This document shows positions 4,817 through 59,057 of a stretch of DNA of 64,000 bases, one piece after another (positions within the stretch are counted from its first letter, which is position 1; every line of letters starts with the position of its first letter). The translations under genes were made by a program, and so were the position numbers. This DNA comes from Begonia masoniana (Eukaryota > Streptophyta > Magnoliopsida > Cucurbitales > Begoniaceae). The notes beneath the pieces were generated by a model that saw nothing but the letters and a program-made list of their open reading frames with translations, had not been told where the DNA came from and ran no database searches. The stretch spans positions 36,545,599 through 36,609,598 of the forward strand of contig CM039516.1 of assembly GCA_022432975.1 (NCBI GenBank), given 5' to 3'.

Positions 4817-5223
4817 GCCGGATGACTCCTTCATCCAACATCTGCCGATAGACTTCAGAACAGCAATTCTGCTGTATTCCAAGAAAGCTCTGACTATCAA
4901 AGGATTTAAGCATTTTACTAAGACCAATCAGAGACAGATCAAATCATTGCATCACTCAAATCCAGTAGAAAACAGTATTTTCAAAACCCAACAGAACACT
5001 AATATCAAAGATTCCCAGAATGTATTCAAAGTTTTGAAAACATTACTATAATAAAATTTTCAGAAAAGGGAACATCTATACTGAACTAGTTACTCCCAAC
5101 TCAACACCTGCAGCCATGGATTAAACCGCCTCAACAGATGGCCAAACCGATGCCTGAAAATGCTCCTCCAACCAGCCTGGTCCTCTTATCGGTCGGTAAA
5201 CACACCTTCAGTAACTTCTTCAC

Positions 5224-5715
5224 CTACATCACAAACTCATCTATTAGCCTAATGCTAAGCAAGTAGAGCAATGAATGAAATGAATTAATGAAACAAAAAT
5301 TTCCCTAAACATGCATTCTCAACTTTCTCATCTCAGTTGTATTCAAATTTGTTCTCTGTGGATCCCTCTGTACGATGGGAAAGTGGATCAGTCATTCCCC
5401 AAAGCATACATCCTCTGATCTCAATTAAGGGGCGGATTAATTCCCTTAACAGTTAACTGGTCTGATCCCCCTGTAGGATTGGGAAGTGGATCACTTTTCC
5501 CAAAACCTCAATCCTCTGTTCTCAATTAAGGGGCGGATTAATCCCCCTTAACAGTTGTTCTGATCATCCTGCTCACATTTACCATGCGTTTCATGTAAAT
5601 TCATTTTCGTAATCTTTCAAAACATGATGCATGTCAACTGGTAATAAACATACAAACATACATAAATCCTACTGTTTGTGATGTAGGCCCGAAGGCACAA
5701 ACAAACTCTACTTAC
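5224..5715 (-). other. Intron-like module in the GYP1 LTR
   Basis: In element sense a CAG|GTAAGT donor (first intron base 5715) is followed by box A (5674-5687). About 450 nt later comes box B (5223-5236), whose GATGTAG end forms the acceptor AG at 5224. Boxes A and B are perfect reverse complements over 14 bases (GTTTGTGATGTAGG). The same layout recurs in the other Ty3-type LTRs of this window. Confidence 0.6.
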
Positions 5716-6253
5716 CTGGCTCCCTGGAAATCGCTCGGCTAAATGCTACTTCAGAAGCTCGCTCACCTAAAATCATAATAGTACATATATCAAACTTTCA
5801 CTAAACTTCACAGAATCAATATAGGAGTTTGAGGAACCAAATTTGAAACCCCACAACTCGGGTATTCTCAATAGTCGCTCAGCCCGAACCTACTCTAAAT
5901 CACAACATTCCTCGAAACTCCTCACATTGTACTCCCTCAGCTATCTCACTACTAAAATCGCAAGAAAACAAGGAGGGCTTACCTAGGTTGAAGGAGAATC
6001 GGGCAGGAGAATCGCCTAGAGATTTCTGTCGTTCGAGCTGAAGACCGAAAGGGAAAGAAAATGAGTAGTGGTGGCGGCTACTCTAAACTTTTTGCCTTAA
6101 ATACCTTATCCACTTTCAAATTTGCCAATTACCCTTATGCCCTTACTTACTCATTCTTCAACCTAACCTACATTATACTAAAATTTCATTCATCGATTAT
6201 ACTTAATAGATTTATCTGTTATTTTAAATTTTTAATTAAAGTCGGGTGTTACA

Positions 6254-7350
6254 CATAGCGATCGACACCTTGGTGATTTCCAGCGAACAAAAAGTCAAAA
6301 AACGTCCCTTTTGTTGTTTTTAACCACCAATCACCAAAATAACAATATAAAACTTAAATTTACTCTAATGAACAAGATATAACTCATGGATTCGAGTTTC
6401 CAAATTCGTATCTAAATCCACCAAAATCTCAAACTTTATACTAAAAAACCTGAGAAGAGAAACTTACAAACTTTCGAATCTCCTTTACGAAAGGTGTTTC
6501 TTGAAGCCTCGTGAACACTTTTCCAATCTTAGAACGCAACGATTTCACTATTGTAATGAACCACTTTCTCTCCCCCCTCTTTTCCTTTGGCGGTCGTGAG
6601 AAAAATGAAGGAATAAGGTTTTAAAATCATATTTGTTAAAATATTTCTTTTTAATAAATAATTAATACATAAAATATAAATTAATATATTTTATATATTC
6701 AGTAAAGTCCACTTGTCCAACAATCCGAACATTATTGAAATTCTCACTCAAGGTAAATTTAAAATTACCAAATATTAATTTCTCAATCTTTAACCATACG
6801 GTAATTTATCAATTTATTGATTTTGACCAATTGACCTTTAAAATTCAGCGTGACAACAACACGACAAAATAGGTCAACTCTTGACACATTGACTGTCAAC
6901 AACACAAAAGGTCGATACGTGAAATTTAATTATTACAAAAATACTTGTTTTTACAAGAGTTCCCTTAAATGAAAATATTTCGTACATAAAAATACACCAT
7001 GACTTTTTAGATTGTTTAAACTAGATAAGGCAACAATCCAAGATTCAAGAGCACAAATTGGCAGGAGGTATTTTATTTTATTATTTCTACATTCGATTTA
7101 CATGATTAATTTTGAATATAAAGACTGTTGTTTTGAATATAAAGCATGTTTATATCGTACGAAGATTATCTACATCTATCACTTCTCTCTATGTTTTTGA
7201 AATATCTTTCATTCTTTTCCACACAGTAATATCTGAAAGTAGAGGAGAAATGACCTCATATGGTATGAAAGCTGCCAAGTTTTGTTTTTGACAGAAAATC
7301 CATGACTTCTTTTAAATTACTTATTTCGTGAATCTTGGACAATACATTAG
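6254..7350. other. AT-rich spacer without recognised genes
   Basis: Non-coding DNA between the GYP1 LTR and the duplicated segment. The first five bases (CATAG, 6254-6258) would be the GYP1 target duplication, but the partner copy is outside the window. The short open frames near 7012-7200 have no recognisable motif. The 6254-6600 part may be the remnant of an older element; I cannot assign it. Confidence 0.5.
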
Positions 7351-7627
7351 TAGCAGAATTCAACCTTCATCATGGGACCTGAAGGTTCAGCTGAAATTAC
7401 AAGGTCCCACAAGATAGAATGCCAACGATCTTGAAGTTCTCGATCTGAAAAATTCGGAGACAATCACACTGTAGCTTTAGCAAGTGATTCTAATGAAGCT
7501 CCTGTATGCTAAGTAAGAACCGTGAAAAGGCAACAAAAAACCACCTAAATTCTACATTCTCGGAAGCATATAAATAAAAAAAAAAACTAGATAAGAACTC
7601 AAATGAATTCAATTAGTTATAACATTC

Positions 7628-7948: not shown

Positions 7949-7963
7949 TCCTCCCTTAAGCTT
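7949..7963 (-). other. Polypurine tract of COP-A
   Basis: The minus strand reads AAGCTTAAGGGAGGA directly before the 3' LTR. This is the expected plus-strand priming site. Confidence 0.8.
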
Positions 7964-14886: not shown

Positions 14887-16593
14887 TGTAACACCCCGGA
14901 ATTCCATAAACGTGAGTTGCCCTTAGATTAGATTATATTGTGGAAACTTAACATAGATCCTAGAAGCACTTAAATTAGAAGCAGGAATTAGAGGGAAAAA
15001 CTATAGAGATGAAGAGGTTTAGGGTATTATTAGTGAGAATAAATGTAAAGGCAAAGAAAAGAAGTAGATGAGGGCATAAGAAGGGAACTTCCACGTTGGA
15101 TTAGTGTGAAGTAAGGAGGGGGTAGCTTTTATAATTTTCTTAAAAATTGTGATGAAAGTTTGAATGAAAGAAAGTGGATTATTAAAAGGTGTTAGGTGAA
15201 GGGTAATTAGGCAAAAACTTGTCTTCTTCTTCCATCGTGAACCCTAAGTCCTCTATTGTTGAAGTTTCAAGCTCCATTTGGTGAAGAAAGTAGCAAGTTT
15301 AGTGGGTCAAATTGATGGGTTTTAAGTTGCATGCAATTCTTTGGGAGTTTTTAGTGTTTTGCTGGTGTTTTAGTGAGGTTTGGTAAGGGTTTGGAAACCC
15401 TAATGGTGAAGCTCCAAATTTTCTTTTCCTTGGCTGTATTTTCTTGTCATTTTGATGATTTAAACCTTAGATAGGTTGGTTTAAGTTGTTTATAGGGATA
15501 GATTAGAGTTAGAGGTGAAATTGGTGAAAAATCGGTTTTGGTACATTATGTTGCCGGTTCTGTTTTTGTAGAATTAGATTGGCCATGTTGTGTGGTTGGT
15601 AAATTGGGTTGATTCAATGGATAGTAGACATGTAGAGGTTTACGGAATGAGTTGGATCGTTTAAATCCGATGAAAAATGAGTAAGTTATGGCCGATTGAA
15701 GTTTAGATATTGAAAATGAGGAAAAATCGGGATTTTTAGTTTAGTTGTGTTAAAGTTAGTTGTTTGTAGTAAGAGTTAGATTAAATATCCTTTAGAATTG
15801 ATTTATAATGCCTAAGTGAATTCTATATATATGTTAGGTTGACGAATGAGCATTTGGACTAATCGAGCGAGCAATTAAGAGTACGTACGAAGAATTCAGA
15901 TAAGTAGTGGTTAATTTTGATTGTGCCTTCAGGCCTACACCATGGAACGGTAGAGATTTGTTTGATTGTTTGGTTGTTTTGTTTGGTTTTGTGGTTAAGC
16001 ATTTATATGACATGCATCATTGTTTTCAAACTACGAAAAACGAGTTTTGAGCATAGTTTTAATGTGTGAGCTTGAAACGTAAAAAGATAAGAAAATAATG
16101 CAACGTGGTTTCGAGTAGAGTCGCCTCGTCGGGGAATAGTGCTAGAGTAGCACCTCGAGAGGGTCTCTATGAGATATGCATTGCTGAAGATATGTAATGT
16201 GTTGAGAATATGAACGCCTCATCGGGAAGTAGTGCTAGTGTAGCACCTCGAGAGGGTTCTATGATCGATGTGGGAGGAGATCGTGTATGGCTGTCCAATG
16301 GATGGGGACCGGATGTGTGTTGTCCGATCTTGCTTTGCTAGGTCAAGGTGTGGCCGTCCAGTGAGCGGGGCTCGGATGTGTGCCTACTTGATCCACACGG
16401 AAAAGTGAAAGATTAACGAAACGAGAACAACAAAGCGAGTAGAAACTGTATGCGTTAGGGGTTGTGTATGCATTGTGTTTTGTTTACATTCATTATTCCC
16501 TACTTGCTATGTAACGACCCTTTTTCCCAGCAAGATATTGTCCGCTCTGGGGATCGAGCCGCAGCCTAATATCCTCCCCTCATGGCTTTGTTT

Positions 16594-16680
16594 GGCGAGG
16601 ACTTCACAGTCGGTCACCCAACCTGGTACTATTCTCGCCAAAGCACTTTTAACTTCGGAGTTCTTATGGGATCCGTTGTC
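16594..16680 (-). other. 5S rRNA-derived segment, left LTR 1
   Basis: The minus strand matches the plant 5S body from GATCCCAT through AACTCCGAAGTTAA to the GGTTGGGTGACC region. Cassandra LTRs carry such segments, which include the RNA polymerase III internal promoter. It is not a functional rRNA gene. Confidence 0.85.
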
Positions 16681-17040
16681 AATTGTGCTCTAAAACGCGT
16701 CTTACTATTTTGGGAAGGTGTATTTACATATGTTTCATTTCCACATACTTCCCCAAGCGATGTGGGATTGTGACGACCCCCACATTACTACCTACCCCCT
16801 TCACCGGCCTTTTTCCAGCGCGGACGCACCGCCATCCGGGTCTAGATCCAGTATACGGGCCAGTCGTGCACATATGGGTCATCACAATCACCCCCCTCGG
16901 GGGCCCAACGTCCTCGTTGGCCACATTTCCGGTTGGGTATAGGCTCTGATACCATTTGTAACGACCTTTTTTCCCAGCAAGATATTGTCCGCTCTGGGGA
17001 TTGGGCCGCAGCCCAATATCCTCCCCTCACGGCTTTGTTT

Positions 17041-17127
17041 GGCGAGGACTACCCAGTCGGTCACCCAACCTGGTACTACTCTCGCCGAAGTACTTTTAAC
17101 TTCGGAGTTCTTATGGGATCCGTTGTC
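17041..17127 (-). other. 5S rRNA-derived segment, left LTR 2
   Basis: Same 5S-like block as in LTR 1, with AGTTAAAAGTACTTCGGCGAG and GGTTGGGTGACC on the minus strand. Confidence 0.85.
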
Positions 17128-17475
17128 AATTGTGCTCCAAAACGCATCTTACTATTTTGGGAGGATCTCTTTACATATGTTTCATTTCCATATATTTCCC
17201 CAAGCGATGTGGGATTGCATTACGACTTACCCTTTTCACCGGCCTTTTTCCCCTGCGGACGCACATCCATCCAGGTCCGGATCCAGTATACGGGCCAGTC
17301 GCGCACATATAGGTCATCACAATCACCCCCCCTCGGGGCGCAAAGTCCTCATTGACCACATTTCTGGTTGGGTACAGGCTCTGATACCATTTGTAACGAC
17401 CCCTTTTCCCAGCAAGATAATGTCCGCTCTGTGGATTGGGCCGCAGCCCAATATCCTCCCCTCACGGCTTTGTTT

Positions 17476-17562
17476 GGCGAGGACTTCCCAGTCGGTCACC
17501 TAACCTGGTAATACTCTTGCTGAAGCACTTTTAACTTCAGAGTTCTTATGGGATCCGTTGTC
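17476..17562 (-). other. 5S rRNA-derived segment, left LTR 3
   Basis: Same 5S-like block, slightly more decayed (GGTTAGGTGACC in the box C region). Confidence 0.83.
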
Positions 17563-18420
17563 AATCGTGCTCCAAAACGCGTCTTACTATTTTGGGAGGG
17601 TTTCTTTACATATGTTTCATTTCCACATACTTCCCCAAGCGATGTGAGATTGTGACGACCCCCACATTACGACCTACCCCCTTCACCGGCCTATTTCCCG
17701 CCGCCATCCAGGTCCAGATCCAGTATACGGGCCAGTCGTGCACATATGGGTCATTACAATCACCCCCCCGGGGGCCCAACGTCCTTGTTGGTCACATTTC
17801 CGGTTGGGTACAGGCTCTGATACCATAACTGTGACGACCCCCGACCCGTTCGGGGCCGAGGAGCCGTCACTCCGGAACATTCAAAACAGGGACCTTTTTT
17901 TCTTGTAAACAAACCAACCCTTAAAACTTTACACAGAGAGAAAACATTTCTCTGAATTTAAATGCAAACGGGAAACAGTTAAAATTGGACAGCAAAATGA
18001 AAAACAGAGGACATCAGTAAGACTGGAACACTTAAAAATTTGGACATAAACTTTTCCTAGACGAATGCGGGGAGACAGGGAGAATCGTAAACGGGAAGAC
18101 AAAAGTGGATGATGAAAATAAACAGGTGGAAATGGACGACTGACATGCAGTGAAGACCTAATAAAATGGGAAACAGAAATTGGATGTCATGCCGGAAGAA
18201 GGGCTACAGTGAATGACAAGATCGGGTGATCTAGGGCAGAAGAAGTAAATAAACTGAGGCAGAAGAAGTAGGCAGATGACGTCAGGCGGAAGATGTAAAT
18301 AAACTGGGCGGGCGATATAGACAAGCAGTAGATGTGAATAAGACAAAAGTGAACAGTAAACAGCGGCAGATGTGAATAAGACAAAAGTGAACAGCAAATA
18401 GCGGCAGATATGATTTTAAA

Positions 18421-18560
18421 AGGCAGTGGTGGATGTAATTTTAAAAGCAGCGGTGGATGTGATTTAAAAAGGGCAGCGGTGGATGTAATTTTAAAAGCAG
18501 CGGTGGATGTGATTTTAAAGGGCAGCGGTGGATGTAATTTTAAAAGCAGCGATGGATGTG
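18421..18560. repeat. 24-bp tandem repeat, left arm
   Basis: About seven copies of a 20-24-bp unit containing CAGCGGTGGATGT followed by ATTTTAAA. Inverted counterpart at about 18955-19135. Confidence 0.85.
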
Positions 18561-18954
18561 ATTTTAAACGTTGTATTGAATCTTTCGATGTATTTAAAAC
18601 CTCTGTATTTGACAGTTGAATTTATGCTTTGAAGTATTCTGGAATTGTTTGAAATATTTTCTCTTTTAGGGTGTACACAGATTATCTCCGATTTTAGAGC
18701 CATCCATGCAGTATGGTTTCTTAAACCTCGGTTGTGTTTTCTGATATGTCTAAAATCATGTTTTGAATCGGTTTTTGAAGTTTGAAGCTTTTATACTTTT
18801 TGTTTTCACGTTTTCTGTTTTTATGTATTCCTGTTAAAGGTCGTAATTTTTGCCTTTAAACTCTACTTCCACCAATTCACATCCACCGCTGATGACGTCA
18901 TCTGTTTTACATCGCCCGATGACGTCATCTGTTTTACATTTACCGCTGCCTTTG

Positions 18955-19135
18955 AAATCACATCCACCGCTGCCCTTTAAAATCACATCCACCGCTGCTT
19001 TTGAAATCACATCCACCACTGCCCTTTAAAATCACATCCACCGCTGCTTTTAAAATTACATCCACCGCTGCCCTTTTTAAATCACATCCACCGCTGCTTT
19101 TTAAAATTACATCCACCGCTGCCTTTTAAAATTAT
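18955..19135. repeat. 24-bp tandem repeat, right arm
   Basis: About eight copies of ACATCCACCGCTG with ATTTTAAA-like spacers, inverted relative to 18421-18560. Confidence 0.85.
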
Positions 19136-19973
19136 ATATGCCGCTGTTTACTGTTCACTTTTGTCTTATTCACATCTGCTGCTGTTTACTGTTCACTTTT
19201 GTCTTATTCACATCTACCGCTAGTCTATATCGCCCGCCTAGTTTATTTACATCTTCCGCCTGACGTCATCTGCCTACTTCTTCTGCCTCAGTTTATTTAC
19301 TTCTTCTGCCCTAGATCATTTGATCCTGTCATTCACTGTAGCCCTTCTTCCGGCATGACATCCAGTTTCTGTTTCCCATTTTATTTGGTCTTCACTGCAT
19401 GTCAGTCGTCCATTTCCGCCTATTTATTTTCATCGTCCACTTCTGTCTTCCCGTTTACGATTCTCCCTGTCTCCCCGCATTCGTCTAGGGAAAGTTTACA
19501 TCTAAATTTTTAAGTGTTCCAATCTTACTTATTTCCTCTGTTGTTCATTATGCTGTCCAATTTTAACTGTTTCCCGTTTTGCTTTTAAATTCAGAGAAAT
19601 GTTTTCTCTCTGTGTAAAGTTTTCAGGGTTGGTTTGTTTACAAAAAAAAAATGGTCCCCGTTTTAAATGTCCCGGAGTGACGGCTCCTCGGCCCCGAACG
19701 GGTCGGGGGTCATCACAGTTATGGTATCAGAGCCTGTACCCAACCGGAAATGCCGAGGGGGGATGATTGTGATGACCCATATGTGCACGATTGGCCCGTA
19801 TACTGGATCCGGACCCAGATGGCGGTGCGTCCGCTCGGGAAAAAGGCAGGTGAAGGGGGTAGGTCGTAATGTGGGGGTCGTCACAATCCCACAACGCTTG
19901 GGGAAGTATGTGGAAATGAAACATATGTAAAGAGACCCTCCCAAAATAGTAAGACGCGTTTTGGAGCACGATT

Positions 19974-20060
19974 GACAATGGATCCCATAAGAACTCCAAA
20001 GTTAAAAGTGCTTCGGCAAGAGTAGTACCAGGTTGGATGATCGACTGGGAAGTCCTCGCC
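19974..20060 (+). other. 5S rRNA-derived segment, right LTR 1
   Basis: Plus-strand 5S-like block with GATCCCATAAGAACTCC, AGTTAAAAGTGCTTCGGC and GACTGGGAAGTCCTC. The box C region is changed (GGTTGGATGATC). Confidence 0.84.
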
Positions 20061-20421
20061 AAACAAAGCCGTGAGGGGAGGATAGTGGGTTGCGGCCCAA
20101 TCCCCAGAGCGGAAAATATCTTGCTGGGAAAAGGGGTCGTTAGAAATGGTATCAGAGCCTGTACCGAACCAGAAATGTGGCCAACGAGGACGTTGGGGGG
20201 GGGGGGGGGGTGATTGTGATAACCCATATGTGCACGACTGGCTTGTATACTAGATCCAGACCCGGATGACAGTGCGTCCGCATGGGAAAAAGGCCGGTGA
20301 AGGGGGTAGGTCGTAATGTGGGGGTTCGTCACAATCCCACATCGCTTGGGAAAGTATGTGGAAATGAAACATATGTAAATAGATCTTTCCAAAATAGTAA
20401 GATGCGTTTTGGAGCACAATT

Positions 20422-20508
20422 GACAACGGATCTCATAAGAACTCCAAAGTTAAAAGTGCTTCGGCGAGAGTAGTACCAGGTTGGGTGACCGACTGGGAAG
20501 TTCTCACC
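20422..20508 (+). other. 5S rRNA-derived segment, right LTR 2
   Basis: Plus-strand 5S-like block with AGTTAAAAGTGCTTCGGCGA and GGTTGGGTGACCGACTGGGA, closer to real 5S than its neighbour. Confidence 0.85.
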
Positions 20509-21530
20509 AAACAAAGCCGTGAGGGGAGGATATTGGGCTGCGGCCTAATCCCCAGAGCGGACAATATCTTGCTGGAAAAATGGGTCGTTACATGCTAAGC
20601 ATTAGACTTACGTTTGTGTTCTATGGTGTAGGTGAGTACGTGCTCTCAGGTGAGCTATATGAGGGAGGCCAGGAGTAGGACGCAGTCGGAGACGCATGCG
20701 GTATGCCGGTGCATGCAGTGTTGAGGCGTCTTGACCATGACGCAGCTGAGAGGAGTGTTAAATGGGGTATTTTGATGGAGATTTAGAATTGTACATAAGT
20801 TAGGAAACTTGAAACTCTTTTGTTATGTATTTGAGACGTATTTTATAAAATGTATATTTTCAAGATTTTTGTTTTAGAAAAATTAAACGTTATGCTACTC
20901 AGTTTTTCATAAAAGGATCGATGTTGGTTTTCATCAATTTTTACGTTTCTGCTGACATTTTAGAGTCGAGTTTCCGGGATTTTCACGTGTCAAGAAGTTA
21001 AAAATGTTGGGAAGGTTTTAGGTGAATTAGAAGTGTGAGAATTGAAGAAAAATTGAAAAATGGTGGAAGTGGGTCGAAATGGTGCACTGGTGGCTGAGGT
21101 TGGTGCGCAGGGCTACTGGTGGGCTCGTGCAACAGGCGCGCGGTGCGTGCGCAGCGCCTAGCACCGATCGATTGGCAAAATTGGTGCAAAATTGGTCGGC
21201 AACCCGAGAGGGTGCAAGCGCTGATCAATCGGCACCAAGCGCGCAGGACGCGCTGCTTGGGCAGCGCGCGCACCGAGTGCGTGCACGCAGTGCCCATGGT
21301 GGGCCATTTTGATTTTTTTCAAATTTTTTCTTTTTCCAATATGTTTTAACGCGGCATTTTCTGACACGTTTTATACTTATTTTACTAACGGTTTCCACAC
21401 GTTTTCGAATTTTCGAAAAACTCAAAAATCGAGTCAAAAGTTTATTGAAAATCTTTTTAATCGCAGTTTAATGGTTTGTATGAGTGAGCAAAGTAGCGAC
21501 TCGAGCTCGAGTGGGTTCGGGGGCGTTACA

Positions 21531-24821: not shown

Positions 24822-25337
24822 AACTGTAACGCCGCCGAACCCACCCTAGTTCGGTGCGCTACTTGCTAACCAATCCCACATTAAAACATAATTTATAAGC
24901 CTAGACTCGTTAATTTCCCTTAATCCTAACCGCTAGCACCACAACATCTTTCCCGAAAATTTCGGCAAAATAACGCCTGAAATTGCGCCTAAAAATGCTA
25001 GGTACCTGCAACCGAATAAATCCCAACCAACCAGATCCCGAAATACTTACTTAACTAACCAGCAACCAGCATACGAAATCTCCAAATAACAATAAGAGGA
25101 ACCTAAAATGCGAACATCTGAAAAAATCCACAATATAGGCGATACATCACCCGTAAATAGGACTAAATACAACATTTCCCAAAAGAGTTAAAAAAAAACT
25201 GATACAATCCAATCCAACACATTTCCCCGAAGATCTGGTCGAGACGCCCGACAACTGCTGCACCGGCGTGCTCCATGTGCACCGACTGCCACCTAGTCCC
25301 GGCTTCATCATCTAGCTCACCTGATCTTGTTTTCCAC

Positions 25338-25847
25338 CTACACCACAGAACACACACCACACACACGTAGCTTAAGCTTAGCAGTAATGAATAACGATAT
25401 AAACATTCACAACGCACACCCACTCACACAATACTCAAGCAATAACCAACAAACAATAACACCGACAACCAAGCAGTCACTCACACAATACTCAAACACC
25501 AAACACCAAACAATAACAAACTTCTAACACAGTTTGCCTGCACCGAAGTGCCATGTTTTGCCGGAGCACCGAAGTGCCAGTTTGCCGTGACCGAAGTGCC
25601 ATATTGCCGTGCACCGAAAGTGCCATATTGCCGTGCACCGAAGTGCCATATTTTTCACACACACACGACAAACCCAACAACAACAACAGCAAGGCCAAAC
25701 CAACACAACAGCAAGGCCGAACCACACCACAACTCAATACAAAACACAACAATAACACAACACTACACGAAGGAGAGCAGTAAAAAAATAAACACTACCG
25801 TTCTGTGGTGTAGGCCCGAAGGCGAAAGGATAACACCCAATACTTAC
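25338..25847 (-). other. Intron-like module in the 24825 LTR
   Basis: In LTR sense the donor is AGG|GTAAGT (first intron base 25847), box A is at 25800-25814, box B at 25337-25351, and the acceptor AG ends at 25338. The boxes are perfect complements over 15 bases (GTTCTGTGGTGTAGG). Confidence 0.6.
25545..25655. repeat. Short tandem repeat in the 24825 LTR
   Basis: Four or five copies of a 20-26-bp unit with GCACCGAAGTGCCATATTGC. A related repeat is in the 47913 LTR (48690-48790). Confidence 0.85.
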
Positions 25848-26484
25848 CCTGAACGCTCGGCTTCTGCTTGCACACTTCTACCGGTCAAATCCACTCGTCC
25901 GACGACCTAAAATAACAAAACTTAGCTTGATAAACCATCAATAAAATCTACAACTTCTAAACTAAACACTAACCAACACTAAACACATTTCATATTAAAA
26001 CCCAAAAACCCGATTTTTGTACAATTTTGACCGTCAAACTTCAAACGGTCATAACTCTCTCATTTTTAAACAGAATTCGACATGCCACCCCAATTTCGGA
26101 AACCTCTACACGTCTACTATACATTGAAACACTCAAAACAATTAAACAAACACCCTAGCCAACTCGAAATCCAGCAAACAGAATCGGCTCACTTGATGCC
26201 TAAAAAATCGATTTGTGCATTTCAATTCCAAATCACAATCTAATCACTCCAACACCTAACCTAACCTATGAAGGACTAAATAACTAAAAGAGGAAGAGAA
26301 AATCCCCAGAAGAAACCAAATTTTCGGACTCCTCCTTTAGAACCCTCACCAAAACCTCCTAAAACACCCTACAAACACTTCTAAGCTTTATCCCATAGTA
26401 CATAACCAAAACCCATGAGAAAATTACCTTGGATTGCCTTGAGAAAATGAAGAACTAAGGAGGGAAATTGTCGGCTATGGAGGA

Positions 26485-26512
26485 AAGAGAGAGAGAGAGA
26501 GAGAGAGAGAGT
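26485..26512. repeat. GA microsatellite
   Basis: About 13 GA units within the solo LTR. Confidence 0.9.
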
Positions 26513-26879
26513 TGATGGAGTGGAGAAGAAGACCACTTTGTCTTCGTTTTAAACCTAACTTTTCTTTCTTTTTTTTTCATTTAATTACCATGTAAATTAC
26601 CAATTAACCCTCACTTTTCCCCCACCACCCTAGCAGCCAACGATTCATCTAAAACCCTCCACTTCTTCCTTTCAATTTACTACATTTTGATTGGTTAGTT
26701 GCATTTGACTTTTCAAACCAAAGTTCTCCACCAATCACAAATTGGTTTGACATGTCAAACTCTCCACTTCTCATTACTCTTCTAATACCCTTCTATGTAC
26801 ACTAATCTTAAATAATTGAACCCTCATGCTTGACCTAGACTAGGGTCACACACGTTCTGGGAAAATTCTTGGTGTTACA

Positions 26880-33456: not shown

Positions 33457-34100
33457 TACGTTGCTTTGCTATAAACTATATAACGCGATTTCTTTACTTT
33501 CTTACCTATAAACTTTATACCGATGGGGCCATTAAACTATATACCGAAGGTTCCTTCTTTCTTTGCTTTACTTAAAACGTCGTGCGGAAATTCGTTTTCA
33601 ATGACTTTAAAAACACTGATGGCTGAACAGTTAATCACGGAAAGTAACAAACCACATACATATCAACACATACAACAAACCTAAACAGCTAACATAACTA
33701 CCCAACCTAAACACATAAAACAAGAGCCCTCAAGGATCCTGATACACGAACGAGGTATGTGTATACCTTTCGGTCAAACAAGTCACGAGAACTTACCTCC
33801 GTGCACGCGCAATCCAAGGCTTCGTCCACGAGGCACTGTTTACTAAGGCAATTTACACAGAATTGACGGTAAAACGCGTTTGAGTTAAGAAACGTCCAAA
33901 TTGTCAAAAAACCTTAACTAAAGAAATGCCTTGAAGTTCTATCCAATTTTATCGAGCTTATTGAGTTGTAAACAATTCACGCCCTGCACCTAAATCTCAT
34001 TTACCCGCTTTTCGAAAAGCCTAAATTCTCTCGATTTTTAAACTTTTTTCCGAATTGATCAAACTTCGTCCAATAAAGATGGAAGTGAGGGAGCTGAATC
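33457..34100 (-). repeat. Ty3-type LTR fragment, minus orientation
   Basis: The reverse complement matches the same LTR family as 32655-33356: ATTGGACGAA near 34070 and GGTAAGTTCTCGTGACTT at about 33785-33796, equal to 57936 onward of the solo LTR. A consensus donor GTAAGT lies at 33791-33796. The right border, near 34090-34120, is approximate. Confidence 0.8.
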
Positions 34101-39346: not shown

Positions 39347-40048
39347 GTAAGTGAATGTGTTAAGATTTCTGGCCACTAGGGCCCTACACCGCAAGGGTAT
39401 TAGGAAATCACTGAAATGTTAACTTGTTGACTATGATTTGTTATTTCCACGACATGAAGAAGTTGTGTAAGTAAATGTAAAGTTACAGGATGTTCTACTT
39501 GTCCTTATGGTATGACTTTTCTCTGTGAACCTCATGTCTATGCATTATGCCCACGTTTATGATTAAGTAGAGAACATGAAAAGTAAATGTAACCATAATT
39601 AAGTGCAGAACGGGGAAAAGACTATGCTATGTATGACTCGCGAATTCTCCCACTGGTGGAGGCCGAGTAATGATATGTATGACTCGCGAAATCTCCCACT
39701 GGTGGAGGCCGAGTAATGATATGTATGACTCGCGAAATCTCCCACTGGTGGAGGCCGAGTAATGATATGTATGGCTCGCGAATTTTCCCACTGGGGAGGC
39801 CGAGTGATGTATCATGGTTGCCGCGATAGGCAAATAATTATGCATGACTGCCGCGATAGGCAAATGACTATGTACCCCTGTCTTCCTCCCTCGTTCCCTG
39901 CCTTAATACATGTTATGTAAATGATAAAGATGAACATGAATGAAGAATGGTTTACGAATTATGTCTCTTTAAATTGTATATTCATGTATATCTGTCAGCA
40001 TGCATTCCTTACTAAGCATTAGACTTATAGTTAAACCTTATGGTGTAG
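39347..40048 (+). other. Intron-like module in the GYP2 LTR
   Basis: Donor CCAG|GTAAGT at 39347, box A CCTACACCGCAAGG (39383-39396), box B CCTTATGGTGTAGG (40036-40049), and acceptor TGTAG ending at 40048. The boxes pair over 14 bases with one G-U and one mismatch. Confidence 0.58.
39635..39820. repeat. Tandem repeat of about 52 bp in the GYP2 LTR
   Basis: Four units with GACTCGCGAAATCTCCCACT followed by GGTGGAGGCCGAGTAATGAT. It lies between boxes A and B, inside the putative intron. Confidence 0.88.
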
Positions 40049-40539
40049 GTGAAGAAGGTTCAGGTGAGGATGTTATGTGCAAAGAGGACGCTTAAGGCTG
40101 GTTGCTGGTGGATGCTCAAGGTGACAGTGCGGGGCTGGAGAGGCGATTTATGACCCCTGGTTTAAACTCTCATGTTACAGTAAGTTAAAGGATATGGTAG
40201 ATTAAGTAGGATGAGATTATTTTAAAACGTTGAGTTTGAAACCGTCTAGTGGATCACTTAGTCAGGGAATGGTTATATAGATTTATGAATGATCTGTTGC
40301 GTAAGTCTTCAGCTACTATCATTGGTATACGATGTGTTTTCTTTCTTCCATTGAAAGGAGTCCTTTGTGTTTTAGTGTGCTCTACCGTAAGACGGAAGCT
40401 GGATGAGGCAATCTTCCTGCTGACAGTCATCGTGCAAATGCCATGTTAAGTTTGAATGGTGTTAGGTCCTTCCGTCTGACAGTCCGCAATGCCGGAAGAT
40501 AAATTGTTTGATGGTTTAGTCTTCCGGATGACGTCACCG

Positions 40540-41150
40540 GAGATGAAGAAAATGTGTTTTGTCGATTAGCGACCGGATGATGTTTTAATTTAGCACGCGA
40601 GACCCACGTGTTCACCGGAAGATGAAGAAATGTGTTTTGTCGATTAGCGACGGATGATGTTTTAATTTAGCACGCGAGACCCACGTGTTCACCGGAAGAT
40701 GAAGAAAATGTGTTTTGTCGATTAGCGACCGGATGATGTTTTAATTTAGCACGCGAGAGAAAAACGTTGTTAACGGAAGAAGAGAAAAATGGTTTGAATT
40801 TAGCACTGAGACCCGTGTCACCGGAAGATGAAAATGTGTTTTGTCGATTAGCGACCGGATGATGTTTTAATTTAGCACGCGAGACTCACGTGTTCACCGG
40901 AAGATGAAAAATGTGTTTTTGTCGATTAGCGACCGGATGATGTTTTAATTTAGTACGCGAGACTCACGTGTTCACCGGAAGATGAAGAAAATGTGTTTTG
41001 TCGATTAGCGACCGGATGATGTTTTAATTTAGCACGTGAGACCCACGTGTTCACCGGAAGATGAAGAAAATGTGTTTTGTCGATTAGCGACCGGATGATG
41101 ATGTTTTAATTTAGCACGCGAGACCCACGTGTCCACCGGAAGATGTCTCC
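40540..41150. promoter_or_regulatory. G-box tandem array in the GYP2 LTR
   Basis: About eight units of roughly 79 bp, each with ACCGGAAGATGAAGA, TGTTTTGTCGATTAGCGACC and TTTAATTTAGCACG. Most carry the G-box palindrome CACGTG next to the repeat start. A TGACGTCA lies at 40529-40536, just before the array. CACGTG is a known bZIP/bHLH core. In LTR sense the array lies after the intron-like module. Confidence 0.75.
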
Positions 41151-45112: not shown

Positions 45113-45679
45113 CTATCTACTATACTCGGCCACAAACCCTGTCTGCTTCAAGTTCAGGAACTCCAACTTCTTCGCGGTCTGGACAGTACTGTTAAAATAC
45201 TTCCCATAGAAAATGTCCTTGAATTGTGACCAAGGCATCGTCAAAACATCTGTGGTGGTCTTAATTGTTTCCCACCAGAGTTGAGCTTCACCAGCTAAAT
45301 GAAAGGTTGCCAACGTGACTTTTTCTCCTTCTCCAATGTTGGCACACCTAAACATGCTTTCAATCTTTCTAAGCCACCCTTCAGCCACAGCAGGATCAGA
45401 TGACTGACCATCAAACGCGGGTGGTCTTAGTCTCCAGAATCTATCCCCGGAATGCTCATTGCTAGAACCCGAGTTGGCACTTCCTTGAACCTCTCGGTTC
45501 AGCAATACTCCTAGCTGATCGGATTGATGGCGCATTAATTCTACCTGCTGTCGCACTAGATCTGTCAACTGTCCGATTACACTAGAATCTTCTGTGCTTC
45601 CCGGAGTTGGTGTCTCTCTCTGCACTCTTGGCCTTCCCGGTCGTCTGGACATTTTTGCTATATTCCTGTACAGGGTCAA
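45113..45679 (-). pseudogene. GYP3 gag N-terminal part
   Basis: Met at 45679 opens 188 residues: a basic start ([19 protein letters not shown] from residue 10), then GGxLR-type gag features (RLRPPAFDGQSSDPAVAEGW, LATFHLAGEAQLWWE, and KKLEFLNLKQTGFVAEYSR). It ends at an in-frame TAG at 45113-45115; the frame then continues in the segment to 42346 with no shift. Confidence 0.92.
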
Positions 45680-45808: not shown

Positions 45809-47873
45809 GTAACGCCCTGAGTTATCTAAACCCGGTTCGTCACACCATACCCGTACATGACTAAAATTTCAACCGTATTTATTTATTTATTTTGAAAAAC
45901 TTGACATAAGCGGAATCTTCAAAACAATAATATTTGAAACTTGCAGCGGAAATCATTTAAGTAAAATGGAGTCCAACAAAACTATTGTACAAGGCTTGAA
46001 TACTCAGTTAGAGTTTTTGGGAATAATCGACAAAAGGAATAAAGGATTAAATCACAGAACACTTTATAGGTTTCAAAAGTCAAACGCATCGCCCGCTGGA
46101 CAAAGTCAACAAAAGGGGCTGAAACAGAAAATAGAAGACATCATCCGGTGGCAAAACGACAAAATACGCTCTACACCTTCCGGTGACGTCAGCCGGATGA
46201 TCGACGCTATACAGCATCCACCGGTGGCTAGACGACAAAACACTTCTTACATCTTCCGGTAGATTATCATACGACATTCACCGGTCACAAAACGACAAAA
46301 CATTTCCTACAACTTCCAGTGGATTAACACACGACATCCACGGTCACTAAACGACAAAACATTTCCTACATCTTCCGGTGGATTAACACACGACATCTAC
46401 CGGTCACTAAACGACAAATTTCGTTCTATATCATCCGATGGCTTCCACTAAAGACATCTTCCGATAGACAACAGAACAACAACTCAACCTATAGAAAAGA
46501 ATTTACTCACTTCACTAAAACCATTCGAAAATATTTCAAACCATCACATTACTAAAGTTCCAGTGGGTGCCAACATTAAATCCCAACAGAATACTATTAA
46601 CAGGAAAATCTCAAAATTGTATTCAAAACATTGAAATCACTTCTGTAATGAAAATTCAACATACTTAAATTGAAATACTGTCAACTAAACTTTCACACCA
46701 TCAGACAACAATTAACCCTCCTCATCAGTTTACCAGGCCGAGGCATGAATGTACTCCTCCAACCACATCTAATCATCTGTGCAATCAGGAAATTCACCTG
46801 CAGTATCCTCAACACCTACATCACAAAACTCATCTATTAGCCTAATGCTAAGTAAGTAAAGCTGTAATGAAATGAAACACTGAAATATATATAAATTCCT
46901 AATCATGCAATTTCTACTTTCTCAACTTAGTTGTTCATGTTTCGTTTCTGTTCAGATCCCCCTGTGAAATTGGAAGCTGGATCAACTCTCCCAAAGTATA
47001 TACATCCACTGGCTCATTAAAGGGCGGATAAATTCCCTTAACAGCAAATCTGATTCACATGTTCAGATCCCCCTGTTAAATTGGAAGTTGGATCAACTCT
47101 CCCAAAGTATAAATATCCACTGTCTCATTAAGGGGCGGATTACTTCCCTTAACAGTGAAACTGATTCACACAGCTGTTTCAATATGTTCAATCCTCACTA
47201 TGCCAACATGCATTCAAATTCATTTTCGTATACTTTTTTAAAAATATATGATGCATGACATACCAACACATTCCAGCATACAAACCCTAATGTTTTGTGA
47301 TGTAGGCCCAAAGGCACAAGCAAACTTTACTTACCTGGTCTCCTGGAAAAACTTGGTTGCAAGCTACTTCGGGTATTACTCAAACCTAAAACCATAGACA
47401 AAGCATACATTATATTCCCTTTAATCTTCATTCTAAACCACTAGAAATCTAAGGGAAACTGTTTTGGGAACTCTAGTCATTGTGCATTCCCGATTTCAAC
47501 TTAAACCGAAACCACCACTCGCTTACCGCCTTCTCAAAACCTCATTTATCATCCCTCCTACCAGCAATAGATACAATGTAACAAGAAATAGAAGCAAAAC
47601 TCATCAAGTTCGGAGGAAATCGCTGGAGCAAGTCGAAGGGGTCTCCTATCGCGCTCTGCTAAGCTGAGGAGCTGAAAATGGAGAGGGAATGAAGTAAACA
47701 GTGGCGGCTACTTCATTAATAGTTTCCTTAAATACGTTATCCACCTTTAAATTTCTAATTACCCTTATGCCCTTGCCTAGTCATCCACTAAACCTACATT
47801 TAATATTGCCATATAAATTGTTCCACTAGTTTAAAAGAAATAGAGAAACGGTTTGATAGAACCAAGTATTACA
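45809..47873 (-). repeat. 5' LTR of GYP3 (2065 bp)
   Basis: Bounded by a TGTAACGCCC end at 45809 and TGTAATACTTGG (minus-strand start at 47873). It shares layout and sequence with the GYP1 LTR: the CATCTTCCGG/GACGACAAAAC repeats (46100-46460) with TGACGTCA at 46184-46191, two copies of the CAGATCCCCCTGT/AAGG-GCGGAT repeat (46950-47155), and the intron-like module. The last bases at the right end are less certain. Confidence 0.87.
46816..47334 (-). other. Intron-like module in the GYP3 LTR
   Basis: In LTR sense: donor CCAG|GTAAGT (first intron base 47334), box A at 47292-47306, box B at 46815-46829, acceptor ending at 46816. The boxes are perfect complements over 15 bases (GTTTTGTGATGTAGG). 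Confidence 0.62.
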
Positions 47874-47912: not shown

Positions 47913-48548
47913 TGTAACACCCCCGAACCTACCCTGACTCGGAGCGCTACTTGGCTCACTTTAACCCTCTATAAATTAAATAAAATCGAACATCGCAAAA
48001 TTTAAAACTAAATCTCTCAAAGCTCTCTTACGTCATACCTAGCTGCCTAGACTCACTAATTTCTCTTAATCCTAACCGTTAAGCACCACGGCGTCCTTCC
48101 CGAAAATTTCGGCAAAGTAACGCCTAAAAATGGCGCCTCCAAAATGCTAGGTACCTGCAAAGAAATAAATCCCAACCAATCCAGAATACTCCTCATCAAC
48201 TTATCCAGCATATGAAATCACCAAATAGTAGTAAAGAGGGAAACTAAAATACTAACATCCCTAAGTGAAGAAAGTCCACAGTACAAGGCGACACGTCACC
48301 CTTAACTAAGACTATATACAACAACGACAAATAGCTATACCGTAACTCTCAAAACATCAACCAAAAAGAAAGTTTCGCATTCTCATCATTTCTACAAACA
48401 GACATTTACGACAAACTACCAAAAGACAAGCCCCCATTCCCCCAAAGACCATGGTCGAGGCGCCCCGACAACTGCCCGCACCGGCATACAGCGTACATCA
48501 ACGACTTCGTCCCAATCCTAGCTTTCCTCATAGCTCTAACCTGTACTC

Positions 48549-49126
48549 CTGTCGACCACAGAACACACACACACACGTAAGCTTAAGCTTAGCAAGTAGG
48601 GGATAACAAATACAATTTAAAAACCAAGCACTATGCACAACAACACATTACGGCCAAACAATGCAACACAACACCACAATGCAACTCAACAACTCGACTC
48701 ATAGTTGCCCGCACCCCAAAGGTGCCTTACACATTGCCCGCACCGAAGTGCCTTACACATTGTCCGCACCGAAGTGCCTTACTCTTTAACAAACTATCGT
48801 TAACCCTCACAACGACAAACACACAACGACAAACACACAACGACAAACACACAACGACAAACCCACAACGACAAACACACAACGACAAACACACAACGAC
48901 AAACTCACAACGACAAACACACAACGACAAACATGTAGCAATACGTATCTAGCGTGCTCTACATCATGATGCATGCTTCAAATAAATGAATTGCCACACC
49001 ACACACCCCACAACTCAACGCCAAGCACAACGATAACACAACACTACACGAAGAAAAGCAATAACAAATAAACCTACCGTTCTATGGTGTAGGCCCGAAG
49101 GCGAAAGAACATTACCCACTACTTAC
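48549..49126 (-). other. Intron-like module in the 47913 LTR
   Basis: Donor ACAG|GTAAGT (first intron base 49126), box A at 49079-49093 (GTTCTATGGTGTAGG on the plus strand). Box B is decayed (48555-48564) but still pairs over ten bases with one G-U. An AG acceptor ends at 48549. Confidence 0.5.
48812..48931. repeat. 14-bp tandem repeat
   Basis: About eight copies of ACAACGACAAACAC, two of them with one base changed, inside the 47913 LTR. Confidence 0.93.
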
Positions 49127-50220
49127 CTGTCATCCTAGCTCGCTGAGGATACTCGGTTACCTCTCTTCCTACGGCTCGACCTACGACAAATATTCAAACT
49201 TTATTAAAAACAAGACTACATTAACCAATGACTCTCAAACTACTATTTCTAGCCTAACCCAACGAAAACCTAACTAAACGGGTCACTAATTTGGGTTCGG
49301 TAAAAACCGACCCAAAACTTCGAACACGCGTAACTTTTGCGTCTGTTATCAGAATCGAACGATTCTAGCGGCCATGTACTCCTCTAATAACCTATTTTAA
49401 CTTGCCAAAAGAAATTTTAAAACAAACGACTGTAGCTAGTTCAAAATCAGCAAAACCCGAACTGCCCTATAACCGGAAAATTTCCCCATTTCGATTTTCC
49501 ATCAATTTTGGCCTAATTCCTCACCAATCGACCACCCACACCCTCAATTAGCATAAACAATCAAAATCTCGAGACTACACTTTACCAAACTCGAAATGCC
49601 CAAATCGGGCTTCTTTGAATTTCGCCCAAACGAAGCTCATCACGGCCAGGCGATGAAAGCCGGACCAAGGGTCTGCAAACCCACGCCGGAAACAACCACA
49701 AACCGCCGGTGATCAGAGCTCAAACTCGCTCCACACCCTCGGCGTTGAATAGAGCAAAAACAAGGCAAAAATGGCTTACCCGTCGGACTTGTGCGCAGAG
49801 ACCGGCCGGAGTCTGCTCGTCGCCGTCGTCTAGCCAGAAAACCACAAAAATCGGCTGTGAACGGCCGTCGATCGCTCGCCCTAACCTCTCCCCTTCGCTA
49901 CCCTGCCTTCGGCGTTCGTGAACGACAGAATGGCTTCGGCCATTCTGTCATTTTAATATATTTTTTTTAAAATAATAATAATAATAATAAAACTAACCAT
50001 TAATTAATCCTCATTTATAGTTTTGCCCTCCCGTGTTTTCGACCATTTCAAATTTCGTTAAATCTCGTTCTGAATTATAACCTCCAGCTTAATTTCATTG
50101 GGAATACCCGAACCTAAATTAAGAAACCATTTACTTTTCTTTTAAATTAATTAAAATAACCCACTTTATTATTCTTTTATTTTCTCTCCATTTTCCCTTA
50201 AAAAAAACCCGGGTGTTACA

Positions 50221-55344: not shown

Positions 55345-56690
55345 AGCAGTTAACCATTGTGGGTGTTTTGAGGCTTGGAGGAAAGTTTTGGGCTCAATAA
55401 AACTTGAACAGAAACGGCCTTGGATCAGAAGATACCATCTTTGGCTCGAGTTCTCAGGGGGTGTTCATTTATTGGAGGTTGTCGCATGGCAGTGACTGGT
55501 AAGGTCACTTGAAGAGTAGGAGGGGTTGTGGTTGTGAACGGATATGTGTATTTACTTGAGAAGGCCTTGGTTGAGCTGTGAAGAAAGATGAAGGAGAAAA
55601 AGAGGGAATGAATAGGGAAAATGGGGGTTGTGATAAGCTGGATTTGGAAGAGGGAGAAAAAAGGAAGTTGGACTCTATGAAAGTGATGTGCCAAGAAATA
55701 TAGATTTTTTGGAGTGAGGGTCTAAACAGACGTAACCATTATGATGGTAGCTGGGTCCTAGATAGACGCAAGAAAGGGAACGAGGCTAAAACTTATGTTT
55801 GTTGAACGGTCGAAGTAAATGAAAACACGGACAACCAAACACAAGGAGCGATGATATTCAAGAGTAGACTGGAAAATACATTCAAAAGATAAATTGTGTG
55901 CTAGAATAGGTTTAGGTAATAAATTGATTAGGGTAGTGGCTGTTGCAACGGTATAAAGCAAGAAATGTTGATGAACTGAAGAATGAAATAATAGTGCAAG
56001 TCCAGTCTCAATAACATAAAGATTTTTTCTTTCAACATGACCATTTTGAATTGGAGTATATGGACATGATATACGATTATGAATTCTAAGAGATTGAAAC
56101 AAAAGAGATAGAGATTGGAATTCTCCGCCCCCATCAGAGTGAACAATTTTGATGTTAATTCCAAATTGAGGGAGACAAATTTATGAAAATGAATAAAAGT
56201 TTGGTAAACTTCACTTTTTAATTATAATGGAAATAACCAAGTGAACCGAGTACAATCATCCACAAAAAGAATAAAATAACGTGCACTAGTAATAGAATTT
56301 ACAGGAACGTCACTATGTACAATATCAAAAGGGAAATTTGCATGTGAACTTGAAGTTTGAAAAGGTAAACGATGAGCTTTACTCATCGAACATGAAACTC
56401 AGAATTGGTGACATATGTGAATGTGACGGTGGAAGATTACACGATTGTAAGACACACTGCAAAATAGGAGACGATGGATGTCCTAATCGGTAATGCCAAA
56501 ACATGGAAAGGTTACTGGCCGAAGGAGGGCACTGAGCATGTAGAGCCCGAACTAGATAAGAAGATGGAACGTGGTAGAGCCCATTAGTGAGGGAACCCCA
56601 TAACAGAATCTGGTGAGATTGTTGATCCTTGACACAGAAAAAAATTAGGTGAAATTTGACATACACATAATTGCCTTTGCACAATTTTTA
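55345..56690 (-). pseudogene. COP-B integrase and GAG-pre-integrase region, decayed
   Basis: The GAG-pre-integrase part reads FWHYRLGHPSSPILQCVL near 56440-56520 (the zinc-binding H ligands). The core is seen near 55980-56100 (ISCPYTPIQNGHVERKN). The frame breaks several times, with stops near 56165 and 56379. The C-terminal linker (55345-55760) is Thr/Pro-rich and without motifs. Confidence 0.8.
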
Positions 56691-56951
56691 AACACTAATC
56701 AGATTATGAGATATAAAAGGAGAGTGGTAGACATTATTAGTTCTAGAGGTCGAGAAGTAGCTGGAATAATGACAGAATCAATATGAGAGATTGGAAGTAA
56801 ATTACTGTCGACAGTGGCAATTTGTGATGTTCCAGTTTAGGGCTAAGGATGATGGAGGAAAAATGCATGAGGTGTGAGGTGGCGGGTGGCACTGGAATCC
56901 ATCAGGCACGGAGCGACAGAGTGATTTGGGTCAGTGTTGGAAGAATCTCGG
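56691..56951 (-). pseudogene. COP-B protease fragment
   Basis: The minus strand encodes CLMDSSATRHLTP near 56870-56910, the copia protease active-site region with the triad glycine replaced by serine. It is cut directly upstream by the solo LTR. The left copy of the solo LTR target duplication, CTCGG, is at 56947-56951. Confidence 0.7.
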
Positions 56952-57935
56952 TATAATACCCAGCTTACGATATATTAATATTATATTATATGATGGCATT
57001 TTTGTAAATATATCAAATCATGTCTGTTTTACAAAAAGAAGGCGTTATTAGAATCCTAACGATTGATAGGAATTTTAAGAAATTTACGAGAATTTTTGGA
57101 GTAATAACGCTATATTTCGAGTAATTACGTTTCTCGTAATATAAAAGATGTTTTAGTAAAATAGTAAACGAGGTCCGATTTGCGAACGGATAGTTTTAAT
57201 AAATCTCAAATAATAAGTTGGACTTATTGGTGAATAAGGAGATTTGGAGAAACCGAATAGTTAGCCAATTAATGAAACGAAGGACGAAACAAATAGAAAA
57301 TCAAAAGAAGGGCAAAATGGTAATTTGCCAAACCAAAATTATAAAATATTAGAAATCCCTTTTCTCCCTCATTTCTTCTTCTCTATTTTCACGAAAACGC
57401 CAGAGGCGATTTCTCTTCTCTGCCATTCGACCGATTCCTCCACGCCGAACTCCGATTCGTCCTCTGATCGTCTCGTTGTCTCCGTGTTTTCTCCTCCTCT
57501 TGCAACCCTAGGTATGAATCTATGATTCTAGAGCGTTAGTTTTCAATTTTGAGCCGATTTAATGTTAGGGTTTCGTTAGGGTTTAGGTTAAAAATGCGAT
57601 TTGGGTTTAAAAATCAATAGGTTATCGTAGTTTATGAATGTATAGAACTCATTGAGCGTTATTGGACGAAACTAGATTAATTTGTGGAAAATATTAAAAT
57701 TCGAGAAATTTCAAGATTTAAGGAAACTTCGTAATTTGAGATTTGAGTTGCCGAGCGTGTATTGCTCGATGAAATAGCTCAATGAATTGGATTAAAGCTT
57801 TAGGAAATTCCTTTAGTCAAGGTTTCGTTAAATTTGGATGTTTAGTAGCTTAAACTTGTTTTAATGACAAATGTCCGTGTTTTGTCTCAGGCGAACGACT
57901 CTCGTGGACAGAGCTCAAAGTTCAGCGCGCTCAAG

Positions 57936-58502
57936 GTAAGTTCTCGTGACTTACTCTGGCCGATTGGCCTACACCGTACATCAATGTCACGTCGAGAATC
58001 TTGGAGAACTGTTTGTTAATATGCGTTGGTTGGGTAGATAGGTTTAGTTGTTTTATAGCTTATGCATTATAATCTTGATGGTACGCATGATGGTTGTTTA
58101 TTTTGTGTTTATAAACTGTTCATGCATCTCGTATTTAAAATAGCATGAAAAACGGATTTCTGCACGGTTAAAAAAAATGAAATGAACTAATGAAAAGAAA
58201 ATACGTAATCTATTATCTGTTATCTGGTCATGGGAGGTGGGGCTCAGGCATGGCTGTACGGGTTGTAAGCATGCACCCCCCCCCCTAAACGTGGAAAGTG
58301 TTGTCCAACCGCTGGAATAGCACTCTCCATTTAGTTGGCTGAGACCTCAGTGAAATCTCTGTTATCTGTATCGGAATGATCTGTCATGTTAAGTAATCTG
58401 TATCTGTAATCTGCATGATTTCTGAAATTCATACGCACAGCACGCATCTGCATTTACAAAACTTGCTGAGTCTTTAGCTCATAATGTGTCTGTATGGTGT
58501 AG
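57936..58502 (+). other. Intron-like module in the 56952 LTR
   Basis: Donor CAAG|GTAAGT at 57936, box A CCTACACCGTAC (57968-57979), box B GTATGGTGTAGG (58492-58503), acceptor TGTAG ending at 58502. The boxes pair over 12 bases with one G-U. Confidence 0.6.
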
Positions 58503-59057
58503 GTGACATTAAGGCAGGTGAGGACGACGTTCCTCCTCCTGACGTATGATGCAGTTGATGGAGAATGGCCCGTGGGAGTGTGCTGAGCAGTAGGTGCGTT
58601 TTGACCCATGGGGATGTATGTACGTATTTTGAGAGTACTGGGTTAATATTGGGCAAAATATGTGTAAAGTTAGAACATAGTAGGATGCTTAGGATCTGGC
58701 TAGATGTTAGGTTCATGTTTTGAGGTTTTAAACGTTCTTAAAAACCTGTTTTATAAACTGTGTTTTTATAGTGTGTTCATTGGAACTGCTTGGAATTTAA
58801 AACAGGAGGATTTGTTCGATTTTTAAACGTATCCACACAGTTCGTTTTTATGAAAGTTTAACGTGCGTTTAGTTCGTTTAATTGGGAGGAATAGAATGTT
58901 GGTGTTTGCTCTCTGGAACTTCGAATTCCAGAGAGCACTTGTATAAAAAAAAAAGAGAGAGAAGAAAGAAAAGTTGAGAGAAAAGAATGAAGGAATGTGG
59001 AAGGCGACTGATCGCCATTGTGAGGGGCGACCAATCGCTCTTCCATGCCTTGTGTTC

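Follow-up and report, generated by a model that had tools for sequence, protein, structure and literature searches.

Retroviruses such as human T-cell leukaemia virus (HTLV) and the foamy viruses carry their major splice donor in the R region of the long terminal repeat (LTR), and their unspliced RNA must be kept. Here we describe a candidate intron, bordered by two complementary boxes, in seven LTRs of Ty3-type retrotransposons within 64,000 nt of the Begonia masoniana genome (contig CM039516.1, positions 36,545,599 to 36,609,598; hereafter the window). We take these elements provisionally to belong to the Tekay/Del clade, the name given in an earlier, sequence-only reading of the window. The module would resemble the retroviral arrangement in its LTR-encoded splice signal and its need for unspliced RNA, but the retroviral acceptor lies outside the 5' LTR, whereas in the present module the LTR contains both sites.

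How one transcript can be both messenger RNA (mRNA) and genome has been called a "major question" for retrotransposons (PMC3735527). The Ty1/copia element BARE1 of barley has a spliced RNA pool that is translated and an unspliced pool that is packaged, a division like that proposed below; however, its 104-nt intron sits at the end of gag, outside the LTR, and the available text of that report mentions no closing stem (PMC3735527). In the Arabidopsis Ty1/copia element EVADE (EVD), partial splicing to shGAG similarly splits the RNA and balances Gag mRNA against full-length RNA, but the intron lies in the GAG-POL region and is coupled to early cleavage and polyadenylation (PMC8892269). Ogre of legumes is itself a Ty3 element, and some of its transcripts, but not all, have an intron removed (PMC6317226). 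Plant LTR elements are otherwise described as generally intronless, with Ogre and EVADE as notable exceptions, in a 2025 review (PMC12786077). The closest structural parallels are human pairs of conserved complementary regions (PCCRs), long-range intronic helices near splice sites, which belong to host genes and not, as here, to a module that recurs in a mobile element (PMC8052449).

The open-access literature on Ogre, BARE, EVD and the sunflower elements Tyran and Varan, as far as its accessible text goes and with most subscription papers outside this scope, describes neither an intron wholly inside an LTR nor a stem over its acceptor. The sequence-only reading had likewise known of no description. 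Tekay elements are missing from the highly expressed set in sunflower (PMC7730604), which could help to explain why junctions of this kind would have escaped notice.

Covariation of two boxes at the borders of a candidate intron

Each LTR carries a box A that starts 28–36 nt past a predicted donor and a box B, complementary to box A, that holds the predicted 3' splice site. We refer to the region between the splice sites as intron 2. On the reverse strand, intron 2 of GYP1 spans 5224–5715 (492 nt; donor GTAAGT at 5715, final intron base 5224), with box A (CCTACATCACAAAC) at 5674–5687 and box B, including the acceptor TGTAG/G (the slash marks the splice site), at 5223–5236, forming 14 of 14 pairs. 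The same strand holds intron 2 of GYP3 (46816–47334, 519 nt; boxes at 47292–47306 and 46815–46829, 15 of 15 pairs) and of the LTR that starts at 24825 (25338–25847, 510 nt; boxes at 25800–25814 and 25337–25351, 15 of 15 pairs). In LTR 47913, also reversed, intron 2 is at 48549–49126 (578 nt) and the boxes are at 49079–49093 and 48548–48564; ten pairs are left, in a shifted register, and the acceptor is now CGACAG/G. Three LTRs lie on the forward strand: 14887 (intron 2 at 15900–20631, 644 nt with a nested insertion discounted; boxes at 15934–15948 and 20618–20632, 15 pairs with one G-U), GYP2 (39347–40048, 702 nt; boxes at 39383–39397 and 40036–40049, one G-U and one mismatch) and 56952 (57936–58502, 567 nt; boxes at 57968–57979 and 58492–58503, 12 pairs with one G-U).

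The intron 2 donor is GTAAGT in 6/7 LTRs, the acceptor AG is present in 7/7, and TGTAG/G is found in 6/7. The sequence-only reading, which had placed the boxes in these seven LTRs with a CAG/GTAAGT-type donor and a TGTAG/G acceptor, was right about the positions and the pair counts, including the ten pairs of 47913. Its splice-site motifs hold for most members; 14887 has CAG/ATAAGT, 24825 reads CAGG/GTAAGT, and 47913 departs from the acceptor motif. An A for the first donor base is seen in intron 2 of 14887 (15900) and, by eye, in intron 1 of GYP3 near 47600.

The two boxes change together between families, as had been claimed. Of the 105 base-pair cells in the border alignment, 98 are paired, and five pairs have changed on both sides. 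In 500 column shuffles the observed level of pairing, the count of 11 doubly changed cells and the covariation score were each never reached, while two weaker measures were matched more often (five doubly changed pairs, 32/500; number of pair types, 247/500). Sliding the partner to other registers lowered pairing to 32–47%. We also used a tree-aware null, in which the parsimony-change count of each column was placed randomly on an LTR tree built without the boxes. Here 0/2000 replicates reached 98 paired cells (mean 81.5, maximum 91) and 0/2000 reached 11 doubly changed cells (mean 2.1). Thus, the helix has been kept by compensatory change. The tolerance of G-U pairs, which had been put forward as a second sign of an RNA stem, is weak evidence when taken alone, with four G-U cells and one A-C cell in the seven helices.

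Chance formation of the helices was assessed by dinucleotide shuffling of the two border pieces. The native helix was never reached in 300 shuffles for 5/7 LTRs, and was reached in 12/300 for 47913 and 7/300 for GYP2. A scan of the whole window on both strands for a donor, a helix and AG/G, starting from 63 GTRAGT donors, returned four matches, all within these LTRs, compared with one match in six shuffled windows. The scan misses 14887 (dead donor, insertion) and the weak helices of GYP2 and 47913. When boxes were swapped between families, two of 5040 permutations, the native one included, paired at least as well as the native arrangement, and without the first eight pairs eight of 5040 reached it. 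A first attempt with whole border pieces had ranked the native arrangement 57th of 5040.

The wider genome was sampled with a donor and box A pattern (AGGTAAGT-N12-34-GGCCTAC with C, G or T as the next base), which gave 340 matches against 5 in a reversed control. We fetched 100 of these, on contigs C1–C4. All have a changed sixth box A base because the pattern required it, so pair 6 was excluded from the permutation test and decayed copies are over-represented. A 3' block defined blind to box A (CTNAG..CTNA, then at least six of the eight positions of TGTAGGTG with AG) was present at 53 of the 100 loci. Merging identical box variants among the 7 window and 53 genome modules left 46 distinct pairs. 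Their native pairing was 291.5 of 414 versus a permuted mean of 253.7 (s.d. 5.9, maximum 279.5), and none of 20,000 permutations, which treat the variants without correction for relatedness, reached the native value. The excess, which the sequence-only reading had expected of a larger LTR set, sits in pairs 7, 10, 12, 14 and 15.

Scans of IMG/VR for plant relatives recognised none. As a control, 12 IMG/VR matches to a donor plus GGCCTACACC, some of them the same sequence, were followed for 1500 nt downstream, and 0/12 had an exact 11-nt box A complement. One contig (NZ_VCHY01000050.1), filed under the bacterium Labilibacter sediminis, has a plant-like LTR end, a primer site and gag/pol-like frames, and looks like contamination. 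It is without the 5' side of the module, its best helix is weak, and by eye an acceptor lies 4 nt before the likely gag ATG.

Composition of the LTR leader

Plant introns are characteristically U-rich and exons U-poor (PMC3735527). The stretch of about 50 nt upstream of intron 2, which we call exon 2, has 19.6% U compared with 37.0 and 34.2% in the flanking introns and is lower in 7/7 LTRs. The predicted exon 2 of GYP1 (5716–5766, reverse strand) runs from TTTTAG/G to CCAG/GTAAGT and has 21% U against 37% and 31%. The profile of U in 10-nt bins dips on entering exon 2, climbs past the donor, dips a second time at the acceptor and recovers some 120 nt further on. The genome modules behave in the same way, with exon 2 below intron 2 in 43/44 and below the upstream flank in 44/44, the 9 of 53 modules without 300 nt upstream being omitted. 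The composition on either side of the predicted sites therefore matches that of real splice sites.

ATG triplets are rare in exons 1 and 2, which together hold 4 versus 13.9 expected from composition (exon 1 taken from 4/7 LTRs), intron 2 holds 129 versus 87.4, and intron 1 holds 57 versus 59.9; for these counts intron 1 of GYP3 and of 14887 was set as the last 200 nt. From the putative start site to the LTR end GYP1 has 47 ATGs, with none in exon 1, exon 2 or the first 18 nt of exon 3. On the reverse strand, acceptor-like sequences also lie just ahead of gag in GYP1 (CCTTTTACAG, 3929–3938; gag ATG at 3916, 12 nt on) and GYP3 (CCCTGTACAG, 45666–45675; gag ATG at 45652, 13 nt on). Judging from these sequence features, a real spliceosomal intron within the LTR, with a conserved long-range helix, is the most likely identity of the module.

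Past the acceptor, AGGT occurs within about +10 to +24 in 45/53 genome modules, against 0–14 in 15 background windows. As AG/GTGA or AG/GTRAG it lies at +15 in 24/53 and at +18 in 15/53, an example being 40062–40067 in GYP2. A small conserved open reading frame in exon 3 was judged by eye only and was unsupported.

LTRs, hairpins and neighbouring repeats

The window is transposon-rich, with Ty3-type pol domains in three elements. GYP2 and GYP3 have the domain order reverse transcriptase, RNase H, integrase; GYP1 was scanned for gag, protease, reverse transcriptase and RNase H pieces only. The GYP2 integrase matches the Ty3 polyprotein 7q5b at 1e-62, and residues 489–521 of GYP2 give a weak match to the chromodomain profile Chromo (E 0.017, under the curated cut-off). 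No coding region was identified for the other 4/7 LTRs.

The 5' LTR of GYP1 (4072–6253, reverse strand, 2182 bp) is bounded by TGTAACACCC and GGCGTTACA and followed by the primer-binding-site-like TGGTATCAGAGCC. GYP3 is likewise a 5' LTR, the primer-site-like TGGTATCAGAG standing after each of the two, and GYP2 is a 3' LTR from 38657. LTRs 24825 (24825–26879, 2055 bp) and 47913 (47913–50220, 2308 bp) are on the reverse strand, and 14887 (14887–21530 including its nested insertion) is on the forward strand. The LTR start is TGTAACACC or TATAATACCC in 6/7, that of GYP3 being missing, and a GGYGTTACA end is seen in 5/7. For alignment, covariation and composition the GYP3 start, GYP2 end and 56952 end were set at 47800, 41550 and 59500. 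Pairwise identity among the seven is 39–66%, and four 110-column blocks alone exceed the conservation threshold in the seven-LTR alignment: the exon 2 start, the donor and box A, the hairpin with box B and the acceptor, and exon 3.

The hairpin of the third block, P3, has the form CTNAG..CTN'A just 5' of box B, in which N and N' covary (T-A, A-T and G-C). It is found at 5243–5259 (GYP1, CTTAG..CTAAT, branch-point-like), 46836–46852 (GYP3), 48577–48592 (47913) and 25366–25381 (24825, CTAAG..CTACG, the weakest of the set) on the reverse strand, and at 20595–20611 (14887), 40012–40028 (GYP2) and 58466–58482 (56952, CTGAG..CTCAT) on the forward strand. Among 26 distinct forms 18 are paired versus 13.4 expected (185/20,000 permutations). 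The branch-point consensus is CTNAY, and by eye such a motif lies within P3, 5' of the AG, in 6/7 LTRs and is absent from 24825. A further hairpin, P1 (GCC-UUCG-GGC and relatives), precedes box A. We also considered the tandem hairpins as a folded intron core and rejected this, since folding of the intron bodies shows no gain in stability over shuffles (per-LTR mean z, -0.58 to 0.17). The 120-nt window with the lowest folding z lies about 410–575 nt past the acceptor in 4/7 LTRs (GYP1, GYP2, GYP3 and 56952); these windows have z of -2.3 to -7.0 and fall in tandem arrays, such as 58992–59231 in 56952 and 4634–4813 in GYP1.

The nested insertion in 14887 (16510–20592, forward strand) carries 5S-rRNA-like repeats, has a 5-bp target-site duplication, TGCTA, and interrupts the branch-point hairpin region. 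Repeat units of about 440 bp, both in tandem and inverted and matching 5S rRNA, occur there and at 61414–62264. At gathering score Rfam gave 7 matches in the window, all to 5S rRNA (five in this insertion, two near 61500–62060) and none in the boxes or elsewhere in the module. An inverted piece of a 56952-like LTR at 33581–34076 adjoins a 100-base N gap; it carries a donor (33796) and a stretch that resembles box A but has diverged, and its box B would lie in the gap or beyond. By eye, bZIP-like TGACGTCA motifs are seen 3' of exon 3 in GYP1 (4500–4800, repeated), GYP3 (46180–46220) and GYP2 (40520–40540).

Proposed acceptor masking and its alternatives

We propose that the LTR leader is organised as exon 1, intron 1, exon 2, intron 2 and exon 3, with intron 2 closed by the box A/box B helix over its acceptor. 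The helix would bury the 3' splice site and make splicing slow or partial, and P3 might sequester the branch point. The unspliced remainder would be the template for reverse transcription, which must retain the intron because all LTRs seen here have it. In the spliced RNA the leader would have lost some of its upstream AUGs; such RNA could be the gag mRNA, perhaps following another splicing event that uses the acceptor immediately 5' of the gag start codon. We infer from sequence features that splicing occurs, that it is partial and that it serves this division of the RNA, with the stem separating genomic from messenger RNA. A stem-closed leader intron whose helix slows splicing, and so splits the RNA into replication template and gag mRNA, is given a probability of about 0.55.

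Folding predictions and analogy make acceptor masking the favoured way of keeping part of the RNA unspliced. In 5/7 LTRs the predicted ensembles leave none of the final six intron bases unpaired, and when box A is blocked the acceptor opens to 0.40–0.61 unpaired in four of those five. Conserved long-range helices in human genes are depleted at active splice sites, enriched at inactive ones and generally obstructive (PMC8052449). The suggestion of the sequence-only reading that the stem hides the acceptor may thus be correct, as judged from these five folds and the human parallel.

Several observations weigh against this proposal. LTR 47913 has lost pairs at the acceptor but retains the AG; a splice site can therefore do without the full helix. 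The predicted folds do not pair up the acceptor in GYP2 and 47913, in which it is 0.36 and 0.73 open and opens no further on blocking box A, and the 56952 acceptor stays shut without box A (0.02 unpaired). By the strict rule 47/100 genome loci are without the 3' block, although some of these (L096, L097 and L134) show the helix. Pairs 8, 9, 11 and 13 have almost no excess over independence in the genome set. Copies of the GYP1 family (40 scored matches to a 201-base query at 99–100%, of 3205 candidates) add no covariation information, since 8/8 fetched have identical boxes. Support for P3 is modest, with 14/500 shuffles on three measures and 373/500 and 223/500 on two others. P1 was rejected as a covarying hairpin; its two testable pairs are invariant in the seven LTRs and a third would overlap a box A base. 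Exon 3 is ATG-rich (31 versus 16.6 expected), and removal of introns 1 and 2 alone would therefore leave the leader uncleared. Finally, a search of the genome for the GYP1 exon 2–exon 3 junction, the only junction searched (up to two mismatches), gave 8 matches versus 8 in the control and none spliced; five of the eight are unspliced exon 2 starts of a GYP2-like family. The lack of a spliced GYP1 copy does fit the need for an unspliced template.

The position of the boxes, near the donor and at the acceptor in all seven LTRs, would also suit a helix that promotes splicing by looping out 450–670 nt and joining the donor with the branch point and acceptor, and helix bridging of splice sites is known from yeast introns. 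However, this helix covers the AG and the first exon base, which would need unwinding, and the obstructive tendency of human helices over splice sites (PMC8052449) also points the other way; we regard promotion as unlikely.

A helix spanning the intron by chance, and acting mainly as a signal of unspliced RNA for packaging, dimerisation or nuclear export, would account for its presence in unspliced RNA only and for a constraint on box A and TGTAG/G beyond the needs of splicing. It leaves aside that the helix ends on the acceptor and that the intron bodies are without unusual structure, and we consider it improbable. Slightly less probable still is a switch between TGTAG/G and the conserved AG/GT 15 or 18 nt downstream; the recurrence of that signal in the genome modules speaks for a switch, but by eye the second site is more donor-like than acceptor-like and lies inside a U-poor stretch. 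That the boxes have no RNA role, as relics of an old DNA insertion with inverted repeats or as co-changing inverted sites of one protein, is very improbable, since two inverted arms 450–670 bp apart do resemble terminal inverted repeats but a dead insertion would not hold them matched through repeated changes, the arms stand at composition-supported splice sites, and the boxes fit their native partners better than foreign ones. A DNA transposon with terminal inverted repeats, or an introner, was rejected on similar grounds, as its arms should drift independently but these change together.

A helix that holds back the acceptor of an LTR intron could, tentatively, extend to a large lineage of plant chromoviruses. 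In such a lineage the LTR would encode a leader intron with a 3'-splice-site stem as its valve, yielding an AUG-cleared gag mRNA without the primer site and an unspliced template, and compensatory change would have preserved the stem between families whose LTRs are otherwise little alike in sequence. If true, a structure-gated LTR intron in an abundant element would answer, in a general and testable way, how one RNA is both mRNA and genome, and LTRs would spread regulated splice sites through the genome.

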